Source: SAR86 cluster bacterium
GTDB lineage: Bacteria > Pseudomonadota > Gammaproteobacteria > Magnimaribacterales > Magnimaribacteraceae
Assembly (NCBI GenBank): GCA_029268615.1
Contig: JAQWNM010000001.1
Location: 62,001 to 126,000 of the forward strand
Reading direction: 5' to 3'
Length of the DNA: 64,000 nucleotides
The translations under genes and the position numbers were made by a program. Positions 3,297 through 11,168 of this stretch are shown here, in pieces. Under the pieces are notes generated by a model. It did no database searches and was not told where the DNA came from. It saw nothing but the letters and a program-made list of their open reading frames with translations. Each line of letters begins with the position of its first letter. The stretch's first letter is position 1.

Positions 3297-4055
3297 ATGG
3301 ATATTGATTTAAGAAGTTTTAACCCTAGTAAGAATATTCTTTCTAATAAGGTCATTTTAATTTCTGGTGCTAGTTCGGGAATAGGCAAGGAAGCTGCGAT
3401 TACTTTCTCAGATTATGGTGCATGCGTAATTCTAACTGGGAGAAAGCAAAAGGACTTAGAAGAAGTCTCTTCAATCATTCAAAAAAAAAATAATCTAAGG
3501 CCATCTTTTTATGAGATAGATTTCGAGAGTGCTAATTCAAAAGACTACTGTAAGATTTATAATGAAATAGATTCTAACTATGGAAAACTAGATGGTTTGT
3601 TAAATAATGCAGGCATCTTAGGTGAAAAAAAACTCATGTCTCAATATCCTTATGAAACTTGGAAAAAAGTAATGGATGTGAATGTTAATTCTGTTTTTAG
3701 ACTCACTCAAACTTGTCTTCCGCTTCTTTCTTTAGCTAAAGATGCATCTATTATATTTACTTCATCTAGTGTTGGAAAAAAAGGAAGAGCTTTTTGGGGC
3801 GCTTACTCTGTATCTAAATTTGCTACAGAAGCTATGATGGAAATTTTATCAGATGAAATAGAAAATACACATAATATAAGAGTGAATTCTATTAATCCGG
3901 GTCCTACTAATACAAAACTAAGGTCTAAAGCTTATCCAGCAGAAGACCCCTCTTCAATCTCTTCTCCAGGGGATATTATGAAAGCTTACCTATTTCTATT
4001 CAGTTCACATAGTATAAATATAAATGGAAGATCTATAGACGCTCAAACCACTTAA
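3297..4055 (+). CDS. YciK-like short-chain dehydrogenase/reductase
   Basis: Classical short-chain dehydrogenase of 252 residues. The cofactor loop GASSGIG is at 24-30 and NNAG at 103-106. The catalytic serine cluster is near 156-158, with YSVSK giving Tyr170 and Lys174. The arginine in the TGRK segment after beta-2 suggests NADP(H). It follows the HAD phosphatase after 3 bases. The locus order is that of yciK in Pseudomonas and enterics, whose substrate is unknown. Its last 23 bases overlap the end of rluB on the opposite strand. Confidence 0.88.
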   Translation: MDIDLRSFNPSKNILSNKVILISGASSGIGKEAAITFSDYGACVILTGRKQKDLEEVSSIIQKKNNLRPSFYEIDFESANSKDYCKIYNEIDSNYGKLDGLLNNAGILGEKKLMSQYPYETWKKVMDVNVNSVFRLTQTCLPLLSLAKDASIIFTSSSVGKKGRAFWGAYSVSKFATEAMMEILSDEIENTHNIRVNSINPGPTNTKLRSKAYPAEDPSSISSPGDIMKAYLFLFSSHSININGRSIDAQTT

Positions 4056-4758
4056 TCTCTTTTTTTGTAAGTTCTTTATAATGCCCTGACCTAATATCTG
4101 CAGTCAGAAAATAATTACCATACCTTACTCTTTTTAATCGTGAAACTTCTAGTCCCTGACTTTCCCATATTCTTCTTACTTCTCTATTCCTTCCCTCTGA
4201 GATTACCATTGCAAACCATTGATTTGATTTTCCAGATCTGCCCGCCTGAATATCAGAAAAAGATGCTTCGCCATCTTCTAAAGAAACTCCTTTAAGCATA
4301 CGTTTTATTTTTTCTTCACTAACTCTTCCATGAATCCTAGCAACATATTCCCTTTCTACCTCAAAGGATGGGTGCATCATTTTATTTGCCAACTCTCCAT
4401 TATTAGTAAGAAGAATTAAACCAGAAGTGTTTATGTCTAACCTTCCAACAGATATCCATCTTCCTTGTCTAATTTTTGGAAGAGACTCAAATATTGTAGG
4501 TCTATCATTTGGATCATCTTTAGAAACTACTTCCCCTAATTTCTTGTTGTAAGCAATTATCCTGACTGGCCCCTTTGATTGAATGGTATTTAAAACTTTT
4601 CCATCCATCACTACTTGATCAGATGGACCAACGGGTTGTCCTAAAGATGCTAATTTCTTATTTACTAAAACTCTTCCTTGTTTTATCTTTAATTCTATAG
4701 ATCTTCTTGATCCGTATCCTAAAGTAGACAGAACCTTTTGTATCCTTTCTCTTGTCAT
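4033..4758 (-). CDS. rluB: 23S rRNA pseudouridine synthase RluB type
   Basis: Pseudouridine synthase of the RsuA/RluB/E/F family, expected to modify U2605 of 23S rRNA. An S4 RNA-binding domain occupies about residues 3-60. The catalytic loop GRLDINTSG is at 105-113, with Asp108 as nucleophile. At 241 residues it is shorter than E. coli RluB, because it lacks the basic C-terminal tail. It is last in the nadE-scpA-scpB-rluB run, and scpB next to rluB is a common pairing. RluE/F cannot be strictly excluded, but the context favours RluB. Confidence 0.9.
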   Translation of the reverse strand: MTRERIQKVLSTLGYGSRRSIELKIKQGRVLVNKKLASLGQPVGPSDQVVMDGKVLNTIQSKGPVRIIAYNKKLGEVVSKDDPNDRPTIFESLPKIRQGRWISVGRLDINTSGLILLTNNGELANKMMHPSFEVEREYVARIHGRVSEEKIKRMLKGVSLEDGEASFSDIQAGRSGKSNQWFAMVISEGRNREVRRIWESQGLEVSRLKRVRYGNYFLTADIRSGHYKELTKKEIKWFERL

Positions 4759-4775
4759 TTATACTAGAAAGTGGA

Positions 4776-5354
4776 CTAGTTTTTTAGATCTTCTGTGGGC
4801 TGTTCTATTATGAGATCTTTATTTAGATTTTGGAAATCAGCTAGTGGTGGCAATTGAGGCAGTTCTCCTAGGCCTTGCATACCGAAATAATCTAAAAATT
4901 CCTTAGTTGTTGAATAAAGAGATGGTTTTCCAGGTACATCTCTTTGCCCTACTATTTTGATCCAACCTCTTTCCATTAAAGACCTTAAAAGAAGAGTGCC
5001 TACACTTACCCCTCTTATTTCTTCAATCTCTCCTCTAGTTATAGGTTGTCTATAAGCAATAAGAGCTAAAGTTTCTAAACTTGCTTTTGAATATTTTTGA
5101 GGTTTTTCTGCCCATAATTTTGCAACATATTCTGATAATTCTTGTCTAACTTGAAGACGATAACCTGAAGCTACTTTTTTTAAAATGAAGCCTCTATCTT
5201 CGCAATTTACTTCTATCTCCTTAATTGCCTTCTTAATGTCTTCTTGGGTAGAATTTAAATCTTCATCGAAGAGTTTTTGGAGTTCTCTAATGTCGACAGG
5301 TCGTGAAGCAGATAGAAGTAATGCTTCAATTATTTGAGTTAACTTGAATTCCAT
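4776..5354 (-). CDS. scpB: Segregation and condensation protein B
   Basis: ScpB is the winged-helix dimer that joins ScpA and an SMC protein in the bacterial condensin complex. The family segment KASLETLALIAYRQPITRGE is visible, as is the RGVSVGTLLLRSLMERGWI helix. I choose the ATG at 5354-5352, which overlaps the scpA stop as TGATG, over a TTG one codon upstream. That gives 192 residues. It lies between scpA and rluB on the same strand, and no smc gene is in view. Confidence 0.95.
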   Translation of the reverse strand: MEFKLTQIIEALLLSASRPVDIRELQKLFDEDLNSTQEDIKKAIKEIEVNCEDRGFILKKVASGYRLQVRQELSEYVAKLWAEKPQKYSKASLETLALIAYRQPITRGEIEEIRGVSVGTLLLRSLMERGWIKIVGQRDVPGKPSLYSTTKEFLDYFGMQGLGELPQLPPLADFQNLNKDLIIEQPTEDLKN

Positions 5355-6163
5355 CAATGCACCTCTATAACTTTTAAATGTATCGGGCCAAATTCTTCAG
5401 TTTGTATAATATCAATCAAGGAATCCTTTAAAAGCTCAAGAATAGCCAAAAAAGTAACAACTACACCTATCTTACCTTCTGAAGCTTCAAATAAAGAAAC
5501 AAAATCAATAAACTTGTTACCTTTCATTTTTTCTAAAATTGCTGACATTTTTTCTCTAGTAGATAGTTGGTTAAAATCTATCAAATGGGCTTCAGCATGC
5601 TCAGCTCTCTTTAAAACCTCCGCTAATGAGAAAGATAATTCCTGCATGGAAATATGCGAGAAAGTTCTTTTTGTTTCAAATTCTGGTAATTTTGCCGATG
5701 CCAAGAAAAAATCTCTGTTTAGCCTTGGAAGAGAGTCTATCTTATCTGCGGCCTCCTTATATCTTTGATATTCTTGGAGACGTCTAATTAAATCTGCCCT
5801 TGGATCCTCATCCTCTATTTCTTCTTTATGTTTAGGTAATAGCATCCTTGATTTAAGCTCTGCAAGATATGCAGCCATAACAAGGTAATCACCAGCAAGC
5901 TCTATATGCATGGCTTCCATGACATTGACATAATTTATGTATTGATCCGTTATTATTGCAACATTTATATCTAATATATCTAAGTTTTGCTTCTTAATGA
6001 GATATAAAAGAAAGTCTAAAGGGCCTGAAAAAGAATTTAAAAGGACTTTTAAAGAATTAGGTGGAATATATAAATCTTCAGGAAGGGCAGTAAGTTTTTT
6101 ACCCTGAACTGTAGCAAGTATCATCTCCCTCTGATGAGGGGATTTTTCTATTATTGCTGACAT
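5354..6163 (-). CDS. scpA: Segregation and condensation protein A
   Basis: ScpA kleisin, 269 residues, which bridges the heads of SMC with ScpB in chromosome condensation. The N-terminal FSGPLDFLLYLIKKQNLDILDI segment (about 44-65) is the family hallmark, and the C-terminal winged helix is rich in leucine (VVTFLAILELLKD). It is translationally coupled to scpB. The start codon lies 4 bases after a perfect 9-base-arm palindrome that includes the only GGA available as a ribosome site, so translation may be affected by that element. Confidence 0.95.
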   Translation of the reverse strand: MSAIIEKSPHQREMILATVQGKKLTALPEDLYIPPNSLKVLLNSFSGPLDFLLYLIKKQNLDILDINVAIITDQYINYVNVMEAMHIELAGDYLVMAAYLAELKSRMLLPKHKEEIEDEDPRADLIRRLQEYQRYKEAADKIDSLPRLNRDFFLASAKLPEFETKRTFSHISMQELSFSLAEVLKRAEHAEAHLIDFNQLSTREKMSAILEKMKGNKFIDFVSLFEASEGKIGVVVTFLAILELLKDSLIDIIQTEEFGPIHLKVIEVH

Positions 6164-6167
6164 TTAA

Positions 6168-6187
6168 TCCAATACATTTGTATTGGA
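6168..6187. promoter_or_regulatory. Perfect 20-base palindrome at the scpA start
   Basis: The arms TCCAATACA and TGTATTGGA are perfect reverse complements separated by only TT. The element ends 4 bases before the scpA ATG, between nadE and scpA. No run of T follows on the minus strand, so a terminator is unlikely. It could be a repressor operator, or a hairpin hiding the GGA ribosome site. Confidence 0.5.
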
Positions 6188-6236
6188 TATGTATTATAAC
6201 CAACAATTTGAAAAAAAGTCACTTTAAAAAAGATAG

Positions 6237-7868
6237 TTATGGCGCCCAGTGGTTAGTAATTGGGTATCTTCTGTCCTTTCCAAAGCCTTTATCGCTTATT
6301 TTGACTCCAATAGGACCTTGCCTTCTCTTATATTCATTCATGTCTATAAGTCTTAATATTTTTTTTACCACCTCTTCATCGAACCCTTTATCTCTAATTT
6401 CATTTAATCCAAGGTCCTTTTCAACGTATAGCTCAATAATCTGATCTAAAACGGAATAATCTGGTAAAGAGTCGCTATCCTTTTGATCTGGAGCCAGTTC
6501 AGCTGTCGGAGGTCTTTCTATTATTCTATTAGGTATGACTTTAGATAAAGAATTTCTATATCTTGATAACTGGTAAACTAAAGTTTTGGGTACATCTTTT
6601 AAAACACAAAAACCGCCAGCTGTGTCGCCATATAAAGTTGAATAACCAACAGCTGTTTCGCTTTTATTTCCAGTGGTTAAAACAATACAACCGGTTTTAT
6701 TTGAAATACCCATCAATATAACTCCCCTACATCTTGACTGCAGATTTTCTTCAGATTTATCTGTTTTTTTTGCTTTAAAGGAATCAGTTAAACTATCAAT
6801 AAAAGCTTCATAAATTCTCTCTATAGGTATAACGTTATGAACTATGCCAAGATTCTTGGATAATAATTCTGCATCTTCTATGCTTATATCTGCAGTATAC
6901 TTAAAAGGCATCATGTATGTTTTTACCTTGCTGGAACCTAGTGCATCACATGCAATTGCTGCTGTAAGAGCTGAATCTATTCCCCCTGAAGAGCCTATAA
7001 TTGCACCAGGAAATCTATTTTTTGTAACATAATCTCTTGTCCCCAATACCAATGCATCATATATATCTTGAATATATTGTCTCTCCAGCTGATTATTAGA
7101 ACTAATTACCTCCACACCAGAAGGAGACTTATTAAATTCTATAACATCTGAATTTGTTTCAAAACTCGGAAAAGAAACTTTACACTCCTCATCTTTTGAA
7201 ATAACCATAGATCCCCCATCAAAAACTAATTCGTCTTGTCCGCCTACTTGATTAGCATAGATAATAGGAACCTTAAATTCTTTTGTGTGTTTTTTTAAAA
7301 GATTCATCCTATCCTCAATTTTATTTATATCAAAAGGGGAGGCATTTAAATTAACAATTATTTCTGCTCCTTGTTTGGTAGATTGCCTGATGGCTTTTGA
7401 ATGCCAAATATCTTCACAAATTGTTAGTCCAACCTTATAGCCTTTAACGTCTATTACACAAGGACCCTTGCCTGCAGAAAAATAACGCTTCTCATCAAAA
7501 ACACTATAATTTGGGAGGTCTTGTTTAAAGTATTCCTTTATTAGATTGCCATTGAGAAAAACTCCAGCTGCATTGTATATTTTTTTCTTAATTTTACGCG
7601 GATAGCCTATACAAATAAAAGTTCCCTTAGCTAATTCAGAGATTTCTTTTAGAGCATCCTCAATTTTAAACAAAAAGTCATCTCTATATAAAAGGTCTTC
7701 TGGAGGATACCCGGTAAGAAACATCTCTGTAAAAACTATAAAATCTGGACTTCCATTATTAACTAAAGACTTAATTTGTTTTTTTGCAATATTGGTATTG
7801 CCTTTAATATCTCCTACAATAGGGTTTTCTTGAACTAATCCAATATTAAGTGAATTTATTTTATTCAT
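6237..7868 (-). CDS. nadE: Glutamine-dependent NAD+ synthetase
   Basis: Last step of NAD synthesis: amidation of nicotinic acid adenine dinucleotide with ammonia taken from glutamine. The 543 residues hold two domains. The first is an N-terminal nitrilase-type glutaminase with the triad Glu48, Lys115 and Cys151 (in LTICEDIW). The second is a C-terminal ATP-pyrophosphatase synthetase with the P-loop SSGGIDS at 293-299. It is divergent from the DAHP synthase gene and heads the run leading into scpA. No Shine-Dalgarno precedes the ATG; a TAGAAT hexamer lies 11 bases upstream. Confidence 0.96.
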   Translation of the reverse strand: MNKINSLNIGLVQENPIVGDIKGNTNIAKKQIKSLVNNGSPDFIVFTEMFLTGYPPEDLLYRDDFLFKIEDALKEISELAKGTFICIGYPRKIKKKIYNAAGVFLNGNLIKEYFKQDLPNYSVFDEKRYFSAGKGPCVIDVKGYKVGLTICEDIWHSKAIRQSTKQGAEIIVNLNASPFDINKIEDRMNLLKKHTKEFKVPIIYANQVGGQDELVFDGGSMVISKDEECKVSFPSFETNSDVIEFNKSPSGVEVISSNNQLERQYIQDIYDALVLGTRDYVTKNRFPGAIIGSSGGIDSALTAAIACDALGSSKVKTYMMPFKYTADISIEDAELLSKNLGIVHNVIPIERIYEAFIDSLTDSFKAKKTDKSEENLQSRCRGVILMGISNKTGCIVLTTGNKSETAVGYSTLYGDTAGGFCVLKDVPKTLVYQLSRYRNSLSKVIPNRIIERPPTAELAPDQKDSDSLPDYSVLDQIIELYVEKDLGLNEIRDKGFDEEVVKKILRLIDMNEYKRRQGPIGVKISDKGFGKDRRYPITNHWAP

Positions 7869-7879
7869 AAGAAATCAGT

Positions 7880-7885
7880 ATTCTA
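7880..7885 (-). promoter_or_regulatory. Candidate -10 element of nadE
   Basis: On the minus strand TAGAAT is followed by 11 bases and then the nadE ATG. A transcript starting at the usual distance would carry a leader of only about 5 bases. No ribosome binding site is visible. The site is AT-rich, so a chance match is possible. Confidence 0.3.
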
Positions 7886-7995
7886 ATTTACCTCTATACA
7901 TAACTTAACTATTAAAATTGCAAAAAGAATAATATATTAACAATACAATAAGTTCTAACATAAGCCTTTGGTGTAAAATAAGCCTTGTAGACCAT

Positions 7996-8001
7996 TATAA
8001 A
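7996..8001 (+). promoter_or_regulatory. Candidate -10 element of the DAHP synthase gene
   Basis: TATAAA lies 5 bases before the ATG at 8007, with no Shine-Dalgarno, consistent with an essentially leaderless mRNA. Just upstream, the octamer TAAGCCTT occurs twice in direct orientation (7961-7968 and 7979-7986), where a regulator could bind. No leader peptide or attenuator can fit. Confidence 0.35.
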
Positions 8002-8006
8002 ATAAA

Positions 8007-9065
8007 ATGAGATATCAAACAGATAATACTAGGATTATAGGTAAGCAGGAGATACTAAGTGCGGAAGATCTTATTAAGGCTTTTCCTCTATCTGAAAAAG
8101 TATCTAAATTAGTTTATGAATCTAGAAATGATATCTCAAATATAATTTCAAAAAAAGATGACAGACTTATGGTTGTCGTAGGACCATGCTCTATACATGA
8201 TCCTGAAGCAGCTCTTGAATATGCTAACTTATTAAAAAAGGAAGCTAAAATTTATGAGAATGAATTAAAAATCATAATGAGAGTTTATTTTGAAAAGCCA
8301 AGAACTACTGTTGGCTGGAAAGGTCTTATAAATGATCCTGATATAGATAATACTTACAACATAAATAAAGGACTTAAAATAGCTAGACAGCTACTTTTAA
8401 ATCTTAATGATTTAGGTCTTACTTCAGCTACAGAATTCTTGGATGTAATTACACCTCAATATATAGCTGACATTATATCTTGGGGAGCTATAGGTGCTAG
8501 AACAACTGAAAGTCAGGTTCATAGGGAGTTGGCTTCCGGTATATCTTGTCCTATTGGTTTTAAAAATTCAACAGAAGGTAGCATCCAAGTTTCAATAGAT
8601 GCGATTAAGTCTGCAAAAAACCCTCATATATTTTTATCAGTAACAAAAGAAGGTAAATCAGCTATATTTGAATCTTCAGGAAATGAAGACTGTCATATTA
8701 TTTTGAGAGGTGGAAAGGAGCCGAATTATGATTCCACTAATGTAGCTAAATCTTGCAACCTTTTACATGAAGCAAACTTACCTGAAACACTGATGATAGA
8801 TATGAGTCACGGAAACAGCACCAAGCAACACAAAAAACAACTCGAAGTTTGTAAGAATATTGGAGATCAGATTTCTAATAATGAAAAAAGAATCACAGGA
8901 GTTATGATTGAAAGTAACCTAGTAGAGGGCAATCAACCTGACAAAGACAAATCAAAATTTAGATATGGTCAGAGTATTACAGATGCCTGTATAGACTGGA
9001 AAGATACGACCTCATGTTTAGAAGATTTAGCTAGATCTATATCCAAAAGAAGAAATTTATCTTGA
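8007..9065 (+). CDS. 3-deoxy-7-phosphoheptulonate (DAHP) synthase, class I
   Basis: First enzyme of the shikimate pathway, condensing phosphoenolpyruvate with erythrose 4-phosphate. It has 352 residues, the standard length of AroF/AroG/AroH. The metal-binding cysteine is Cys61 in GPCSIHDPE (59-67). EKPRTTVGWKGLINDP lies at about 96-111, and the segment ARTTESQVHRELASG follows. The feedback type (Tyr, Phe or Trp) cannot be read with confidence, so I give no symbol. aroK and aroB lie at the other end of the window. Confidence 0.95.
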   Translation: MRYQTDNTRIIGKQEILSAEDLIKAFPLSEKVSKLVYESRNDISNIISKKDDRLMVVVGPCSIHDPEAALEYANLLKKEAKIYENELKIIMRVYFEKPRTTVGWKGLINDPDIDNTYNINKGLKIARQLLLNLNDLGLTSATEFLDVITPQYIADIISWGAIGARTTESQVHRELASGISCPIGFKNSTEGSIQVSIDAIKSAKNPHIFLSVTKEGKSAIFESSGNEDCHIILRGGKEPNYDSTNVAKSCNLLHEANLPETLMIDMSHGNSTKQHKKQLEVCKNIGDQISNNEKRITGVMIESNLVEGNQPDKDKSKFRYGQSITDACIDWKDTTSCLEDLARSISKRRNLS

Positions 9066-9122: not shown

Positions 9123-10205
9123 ATGACTAAACAGTTCATTACAATTTCAAAAGAAATAGCAGAATCAATTGGCTTAAGAGAGGCTACACTTTTTGGGTTA
9201 TTAAACTCTAATTTTACCAATCATCAGCAAGATTTTAATTTACAAGACATCCTAAAAGAAACTCCTTTTTGGAAAAAAGAAGAACTTTTGCAAGTTTTAA
9301 AGAGCCTTAAAAATAAGGGTCTTATTGGTTCAACAGACAACTATTCTTCAATTGAGCTAACAAAACCTTACAAAGAAAAAAAATCTAAATCTCCTTCAAG
9401 TTTTACAAGGAAAAATCCATCTACTATGCCAGAGAACTGGGAACCGGAAACTCAGATAATAGAGCAAGCTGCAGACTATGGCATTCCAGCTGGATTTGTT
9501 TTAAAACAATTAGAAGATTTTAAATTCCTTTGGATAGAAAAAAAAGAATTACAACAATCTTGGGGATTAAAATTCTTGAGACATGTTATTAAAGCTTGGA
9601 GAAAAAATGAAATAAAACAAAATCAAGAAAAAAAGAGAATCTATATGCATAAAGATTGGGTTCCTGATCAAGAAGCCATAGACATTCTTAACAAAGCAGA
9701 TATTGAAGATCAATTCATTGAAAAGTATCTACATGAATTTATTCTCTATTGGATAGAAAAAGGGGATCTCTCAGATACCTGGAATAGTAAATTTATTGCT
9801 TACATTAGGAGACAATGGGCCAGATTTAATGAAGGAAAATCAGAACATACACCTCAAGAAATCCCAGCAGATTGGAAGCCAAATCAAGAGTTCTATGATG
9901 TATTAAAGCTAGCTAAGATAGATCAAAACTTTGCAAATGATTTAATACCTGAATTTATCCTCTATTGGAGAGAAGAAGGAATAAAAATTAATACTTGGAA
10001 TAATAAATTCTTTCAACATGTTAAATATCATCAAAAAAAAATAACTCCATTAAAAGAAAAACAAAAGGATATAGAAAAAAGGATAGAGTCAAGCTGGCAA
10101 ATAAACCAAGAAGTTAATAAAAAAGAGAATACATTTACAACTTCAAAGAATAAGGAAGAGATTAAATCTAGACTCCAAGATTTAAGACTAAAATACAAAA
10201 TTTAA
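9123..10205 (+). CDS. Replication-type protein with three tandem DnaT-like domains
   Basis: I do not recognise a named gene. The 360 residues begin with a winged-helix-like region (about 1-80). Three copies of a DnaT C-terminal-like single-strand DNA-binding unit then follow at about 103-162, 176-235 and 247-306, spaced about 72 residues apart. Each unit has the pattern W-x-P-(D/N/E)-x-E, a middle helix ending in EF-x-x-(L/Y)W, then TW-x-x-KF-x-x-x-(V/I). A charged lysine-rich tail ends the protein. E. coli DnaT carries one such domain and helps PriA/PriB reload DnaB. I take the ATG at 9123 over a TTG at 9111. The role is inferred to be primosome or replication restart, but it is unproven. 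Confidence 0.75.
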   Translation: MTKQFITISKEIAESIGLREATLFGLLNSNFTNHQQDFNLQDILKETPFWKKEELLQVLKSLKNKGLIGSTDNYSSIELTKPYKEKKSKSPSSFTRKNPSTMPENWEPETQIIEQAADYGIPAGFVLKQLEDFKFLWIEKKELQQSWGLKFLRHVIKAWRKNEIKQNQEKKRIYMHKDWVPDQEAIDILNKADIEDQFIEKYLHEFILYWIEKGDLSDTWNSKFIAYIRRQWARFNEGKSEHTPQEIPADWKPNQEFYDVLKLAKIDQNFANDLIPEFILYWREEGIKINTWNNKFFQHVKYHQKKITPLKEKQKDIEKRIESSWQINQEVNKKENTFTTSKNKEEIKSRLQDLRLKYKI

Positions 10206-10259: not shown

Positions 10260-11168
10260 ATGAAATTACGAAGAACATATAGAACTTCAGCTTTGGCATT
10301 TTTATTCACTATTGTATGGATGGCTTCAGGCTTTTTTAAAGATGATAATCTTGCTAAAAAACCTACCAATAATCTAGAGACAATGTCGGCAGTCACTGTA
10401 CTGTCCAGTGAAGCTGTGATGAAATCAAAAATAATCAAGGCTAGCGGATATACGGAAGCAGATAAGTTAGTAAAAGTTAGGGCAGAAATTAATGGGAGAG
10501 TGATCTCAACTCCTGTAAAACAGGGAGATTATGTAAAAAAAGGAGACTTACTTTGCCAATTATATATTGCTGGTAGAGAAGCTTATCCTAAAATTCAAGC
10601 ACCTTTTGATGGCCTTTTAGAAGAAGTAAGTGCTGAAAGTGGTGATTATTTAAATATTGGCAGTACTTGCGCAACTTTAATTGATCCTAACCCCATGATT
10701 TTAGTTGGTGAAGTTTCAGAAAAAGAAATAGATTTAGTTAAAGTAGGAATTCCAGCTAAAGCAAAATTAGTTTCTGGTTCAGAAATAAAAGGAGTTGTCT
10801 CGTTTGTTGGGACTTCTGCAAATAAAAATACTAGAAGATTTAAAATTGAAATTACAGTTAATAATGATGATGGAGCTATAAGAGATGGGCTGTCTGCAGA
10901 ATTATTTATCCAAGGAGCTAAGATTGAAGCTCACAAAATATCTCCATCTATCTTATTACTAGGCACATCGGGAGAACTTGGAATTAGGACTGTTAATAAT
11001 TTTAATGAAGTTCAATTCCAAAAAGTAACGATATTGGAAGATTCTATGGATGGGATTTGGGTTTCTGGTCTACCCCCTAAAACTAGAATTATTACTGTCG
11101 GACAAGAATATGTCTTTCAAGGTCAAACTGTAAAAACTCAAGAAGCAACTATACCTCCTAAAGCGTGA
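10260..11168 (+). CDS. RND efflux periplasmic adaptor, short form
   Basis: Membrane fusion protein of an RND pump, 302 residues. An N-terminal membrane anchor or signal covers about 8-25. The first half of the lipoyl domain (VRAEINGRVISTPVKQGDYVKKGDLL in two pieces around 76-101) is followed by IQAPFDGLLEEVSAESGDYL, the second half. Beta-barrel and membrane-proximal regions follow. Only about 10 residues separate the lipoyl halves, where ordinary adaptors have a coiled-coil hairpin of some 60-80 residues. The 3' end overlaps the transporter start by 4 bases. No outer-membrane channel gene is nearby. The substrate is unknown. Confidence 0.87.
   Translation: MKLRRTYRTSALAFLFTIVWMASGFFKDDNLAKKPTNNLETMSAVTVLSSEAVMKSKIIKASGYTEADKLVKVRAEINGRVISTPVKQGDYVKKGDLLCQLYIAGREAYPKIQAPFDGLLEEVSAESGDYLNIGSTCATLIDPNPMILVGEVSEKEIDLVKVGIPAKAKLVSGSEIKGVVSFVGTSANKNTRRFKIEITVNNDDGAIRDGLSAELFIQGAKIEAHKISPSILLLGTSGELGIRTVNNFNEVQFQKVTILEDSMDGIWVSGLPPKTRIITVGQEYVFQGQTVKTQEATIPPKA

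Follow-up and report, generated by a model that had tools for sequence, protein, structure and literature searches.

A DnaT-repeat protein of SAR86 bacteria, a candidate helicase matchmaker, ends in a loader-like helical tail in families that lack the loader gene

The locus and its conservation

Bacteria of the SAR86 group are abundant in the sea. In the window, a 64,000-nucleotide stretch of a SAR86 genome, a gene with tandem DnaT units follows an aroG-type gene and precedes genes of an RND operon (Table 1). Of the order's 151 genomes, 133 have it, as do 39 of the 40 most complete ones, and its position between aroG and the RND operon was fixed across the order; it is a stable chromosomal gene. 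Upstream, rluB-, scpB-, scpA-, NAD synthetase- and aroG-like genes lie next to it (4033-9065), in an order that was largely conserved across SAR86 families. A literature search for SAR86 together with DnaT found no paper. In one genome (G012, family f4, a single contig, 93% complete), neither a DnaT-repeat gene nor DciA was detectable. Either the region is missing from this assembly or the helicase is loaded in yet another way.

Table 1. Features of the DnaT-repeat locus (positions within the window)
Feature	Position	Strand	Remarks
aroG-type DAHP synthase	8007..9065	+	Upstream neighbour, conserved in SAR86 and one other family
DnaT-repeat (DopC-type) gene	9123..10205	+	ATG start, 360 aa; start aligned with relatives
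N-terminal winged-helix domain, residues 8-84	9144..9374	+	AlphaFold2 model, winged-helix structure matches
DnaT unit 1, residues 105-171	9435..9635	+	FxxYW altered to FxxLW; profile, alignment, model
DnaT unit 2, residues 178-239	9654..9839	+	FILYW intact; profile, alignment, model
DnaT unit 3, residues 250-307	9870..10043	+	FILYW intact; superposes on 4ou6/6aeq
KRIESSW motif, residues 319-325, conserved	10077..10097	+	Position equivalent to LxDRSWA end of Cellvibrionales/phage relatives
C-terminal helical tail, residues 341-360	10143..10202	+	Resembles C-terminal helix of lambda-P-like loader
HlyD/RND adaptor	10260..11168	+	Next downstream; sister families have lambda-P-like gene in between

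That the gene serves the replication of a resident phage or mobile element, without a host role, is a very remote prospect. Related tandem-DnaT and O/P-type genes do occur on phage contigs, and PHROG replication-initiation families match, but a present-day phage gene is contradicted by the conserved chromosomal position and the occurrence across the order. In addition, tblastn searches against phage and plasmid collections gave no match.

Among 229 sampled genomes of the class, any DnaT domain was found in seven, and a tandem arrangement in five of these. In a scan of named genomes, full-length homologues were found in SAR86 and in Cellvibrionales, in genera that include Porticoccus, Pseudomaricurvus, Gilvimarinus, Teredinibacter and Cellvibrio; the names of the homologues identified the window's order as SAR86. 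Where the gene was complete, the window's family (f1) had three DnaT units, families f2 and f4 had two, and f3 had two or three. The three-fold repeat is no speciality of this lineage: three units were present at all 57 Cellvibrionales-type loci, and two-unit relatives occurred on phage contigs.

Domain architecture and DNA-binding residues

The sole significant Pfam match of the window protein was DnaT (PF17948; 189 bits, E 9.6e-57), in three stretches. Each unit exceeded the gathering cut-off of 25 bits by itself (57.3, 76.9 and 76.6 bits for units 1, 2 and 3). The units start at residues 105, 178 and 250, spaced by 73 and 72, and 14-23 of 59 residues were identical between pairs. The AlphaFold2 model, for which 37 relatives served as input, had a mean pLDDT of 84.8 and a pTM of 0.46, so that the relative placement of its domains is unreliable. 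In this model a winged helix (8-84) is followed by three-helix bundles at about 110-171, 183-239 and 255-325. A disordered linker then leads to a C-terminal helix (341-357) that stands apart. Residues 8-84 matched many winged-helix chains (best Z 9.3, 2.2 Å over 67 residues). Modelled unit 3 superposed on crystal structures of DnaT84-153, both 4ou6 (DnaT-ssDNA; Z 8.9, 2.4 Å over 64 residues) and 6aeq (Z 8.9); a Z near 9 is not decisive alone for a small helical bundle, and it agrees with the DnaT sequence match. The top Foldseek matches of the model were winged-helix and unrelated hits, the DnaT match coming from a second-look aligner, and phmmer against PDB sequences returned nothing at E 1. 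The description from sequence of three DnaT-type domains, repeated every 72 residues behind a winged-helix-like N-terminus, was thus borne out. It had overlooked the conserved KRIESSW motif and the separate C-terminal helix.

The protein shares with E. coli DnaT the three-helix-bundle ssDNA-binding domain, with the FxxYW base-stacking residues present in units 2 and 3 and FxxLW in unit 1. An identity with DnaT of the E. coli type failed: the equivalog for E. coli-type primosomal DnaT (NF002770) scored 22.9 bits, below its cut-off of 201. E. coli DnaT has one unit, a different N-terminal domain and DnaC as a partner, whereas the SAR86 proteins have two or three units and a winged helix, in genomes where no DnaC, PriB or PriC was found.

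E. coli DnaT holds the bases with Phe124, Tyr127 and Trp128, at two nucleotides per unit (PMC4132743). Almost all relatives have kept the corresponding FxxYW (or FxxFW) in both unit 2 and unit 3. In unit 1, this motif was intact in Cellvibrionales and altered at the Tyr/Trp pair in 27 of 28 f1 proteins; the window protein retains the Trp, and most other f1 members have FxxL[NHS], with the Trp lost. Families f2 and f4 have dropped this unit altogether. Since unit 1 has lost its base-stacking aromatics in nearly all f1 proteins, two units (2 and 3) rather than three probably bind DNA in the canonical way. Judged from these alignments, having three units is an inherited state, and unit 1 would be decaying or repurposed. 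The earlier idea that three fused copies replace oligomerization is doubtful in view of both the altered unit 1 in f1 and its loss in the two sister families.

Known loaders and primosome partners

The prevailing view is that bacteria require DnaC/I, DciA or DopE to load their helicase. Brezellec et al. (2017) reportedly proposed DopC/DopE as a helicase matchmaker in organisms that have neither DciA nor DnaC/I. We take the Cellvibrionales protein with a winged helix and three DnaT units to be the published DopC, and the lambda-P-like product of the next gene to be DopE. Cellvibrionales have been reported to be without both dciA and dna[CI] (PMC5109545), and DopE has been named as an accepted helicase loader family (PMC13326638).

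Profile searches detected DciA in none of 41 SAR86 genomes. Within the class sample it was present in 182 of 229 genomes and missing from all five tandem-DnaT genomes; at the background of 47/229, the chance of five out of five is ~3e-4, or ~8e-3 with SAR86 counted as one lineage. PriC was likewise detected in none of the 41 genomes. Among the SAR86 genomes searched, no PriB match exceeded the cut-off and the DnaC family yielded no convincing candidate of 240 aa. These absences hold within profile sensitivity, for the known loader families that were searched. One sub-cut-off PriB match that was read proved to be SSB (ending EEDIPF). Among the IstB/DnaC matches, those of 430-500 aa lay where closed genomes start and looked like DnaA by position and size; the rest, some 800 aa long or else short hits to a P-loop, looked like other AAA+ proteins. 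An alternative helicase-loading system in this lineage, at which the sequence-only reading had hinted, is supported by these searches.

It is unlikely that the protein acts in PriA-dependent restart only, as a DnaT analogue in a slimmed primosome, with DnaA by itself, or some unknown loader, placing DnaB at oriC. PriA exceeded its cut-off in nine of ten genomes tested, and E. coli DnaT domains act in PriA-PriB-DnaT restart, forming filaments on lagging-strand ssDNA (PMC13377028). However, the usual partners PriB and PriC were not found, and the tenth genome, without PriA over the cut-off (G003, loci L032/L088; a single contig, 97% complete), keeps both the DnaT-repeat and the lambda-P-like gene. 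Moreover, a restart-only role does not predict that DciA is absent from tandem-DnaT genomes.

The lambda-P-like neighbour and its loss

At all 57 Cellvibrionales-type loci, the DnaT-repeat gene overlapped a downstream lambda-P-like gene. Such a gene was present in 86 of 151 SAR86 genomes and adjoined the DnaT-repeat gene at every locus read; it follows this gene in SAR86 families f2 and f3 and in two other families of the class. Several of the neighbour proteins matched Pfam Phage_lambda_P over the cut-off, and one matched the PHROG 'P-like helicase loader' (8e-24). For a model of one neighbour protein (pLDDT 83.6), the top Foldseek match was lambda P in its DnaB complex (9oa1, E 6e-5), with a VIA Z of 9.3 over 178 residues (54-233 on 40-229), C-terminal helix included.

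Searches across the 151 genomes found no lambda-P-like gene in f1 or in f4. In the window's genome (G000), the Phage_lambda_P profile had no match and no P helical domain was found. With no DopE match in this genome or its family, the window protein would be at most a DopE-less variant of DopC. The likeness to the Cellvibrionales DopC/DopE system lies in a full-length homologue with a winged helix and three DnaT units (~33-38% identity over its length to the window protein, architecture alike), in a lambda-P-like next gene, and in the absence of DciA and DnaC/I. The window's family differs in having no lambda-P-like gene, an extra loader-like tail and a degraded unit 1.

A tree of seven neighbouring genes grouped f1 with f3 (90) and f2 with f4 (92), with moderate support, an outgroup that shares only aroG, and f4 as a long branch. 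Since the two families without the loader fall in different groups, it was probably lost twice, and its tail would have been kept each time. In genus g15 of f2 (L136-L138), the loader is cut to 142-147 residues, with its first part and C-terminal tail kept; this short form is a plausible intermediate.

The C-terminal tail

DnaT-repeat proteins encoded beside a loader end in a short Trp motif, LxDRSWA in Cellvibrionales and SWAxEIxL or DxEWA in SAR86. In f1, this motif persists as RIESSW and is followed by a variable linker and then a conserved tail (majority identity 0.70 for the tail vs 0.30 for the linker), exemplified by LKKLKEKHQI and, in the window, LQDLRLKYKI. The proteins of f4 are tailed too. 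Loader C-termini end alike (LRKKHKV, LREKYKI), and the window tail is predicted to be helical (pLDDT 77-88).

In a PSSM built on the nine C-terminal residues of f2 loaders, all 13 f1 and all eight f4 tails scored above each of 171 background C-termini, whereas none of 19 DnaT-repeat tails from the loader-keeping families f2 and f3 did so. A single f7 tail, from a DnaT-repeat protein beside a loader gene, was also slightly above background. A second profile, covering the last 24 residues of loaders and trained without f1/f4 sequences, was used to rank 2,658 C-termini. Ranks 1-42 were taken up by loaders left out of the training, by tails of f1/f4 and by lambda P (38), with the window protein at 16; the first unrelated protein came at rank 43, and the f1/f4 tails were within the top 51. 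E-values of individual tails were modest (0.019 for the window), the strong part being the ranking of the whole set.

What is new here is that the loader gene persists in two SAR86 families and has been lost from two, the window's included, and that in both of the latter the DnaT-repeat protein has gained a loader-like C-terminal helical tail. The C-terminal segment of lambda P packs on the linker helix of DnaB, its sequence assignment in the 2018 cryo-EM map being tentative (PMC6391071), and the DnaB site gripped by this segment is common to other loaders (PMC9912922). Judged by the profile rankings, the DnaT-repeat protein seems to have retained the loader's helicase-gripping tail, fused to its own C-terminus; over ~20 residues this homology is statistical, and convergence is possible.

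A distinctly unlikely alternative retains the DopC role and has a separate, unrecognized loader in place of DopE, the tail binding a target other than DnaB or resembling loaders by convergence. The shortness of the tail and the restriction of our searches to known loader families leave room for it. Against it, both loader-less families have the same tail, the two SAR86 families with a loader do not, and the shortened loader of g15 has kept its tail.

Phage relatives and origin

An old phage origin of the DnaT-repeat/loader pair is likely, because two-unit DnaT proteins with an LTDRSWA end are encoded on phage contigs, as are O/P-type pairs with one DnaT unit. In one such pair (L237:1080-2445), an O-type initiator with one DnaT unit overlaps a lambda-P-like gene, and this pair is a likely model of the ancestral one. 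Short two-unit phage proteins (L231-L236) end in LxDRSWA, and the next gene often looks by eye like the Mu GemA type; these proteins are possible hijackers of host helicase loading.

Like lambda O/P, the system has an organizer and a loader as a gene pair, and the tail is similar to the C-terminal helix of P. It differs in that the window gene belongs to the host chromosome, the body of the loader has been lost, and lambda O is unmatched by the DnaT-unit profile. For this last reason, descent from lambda O specifically is not indicated by this comparison. A short Trp motif, NTDW (L227:1040-1086), is found at the end of lambda O as well; it resembles the DRSWA ending by eye and may be a contact site for P.

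Proposed function

A DopC-type role of the DnaT-repeat protein is, in our judgement, quite probable. We also favour, with somewhat less confidence, the fuller explanation that it is a DopC-type helicase matchmaker whose loader gene was lost in f1, with the C-terminal DnaB-gripping helix kept on the DnaT-repeat protein itself. In the ancestral state, it would have worked with a lambda-P-like loader (DopE) from the overlapping next gene. Units 2 and 3 would hold ssDNA where an origin has been opened or a fork has stalled, and the winged helix would bind another protein or duplex DNA. The tail would grip DnaB and bring it to ssDNA marked by the same polypeptide. To judge by its domains and tail, the protein most likely holds ssDNA and recruits DnaB directly. 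We infer binding of ssDNA and of DnaB, and a role in chromosome replication, in initiation, restart or both.

Lambda P also pries DnaB open with a large helical domain. The tail alone may only recruit DnaB and not open its ring, the remainder falling to DnaA or to ssDNA itself. Tentatively, and with rather less assurance than for a DopC-type role, we suggest that in two SAR86 families, probably independently, two-gene helicase loading has collapsed into one protein that ends in a DnaB-gripping helix. If true, this would be a one-protein loader without an AAA+ ATPase, P or DciA domain, in a family where none of DnaC/I, DciA and DopE is detectable. If the tail does this work, it would show how little of a loader is needed. 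The full loader, the truncated loader and the tail alone would then form a natural series, and the minimal requirement for DnaB recruitment would become directly testable.
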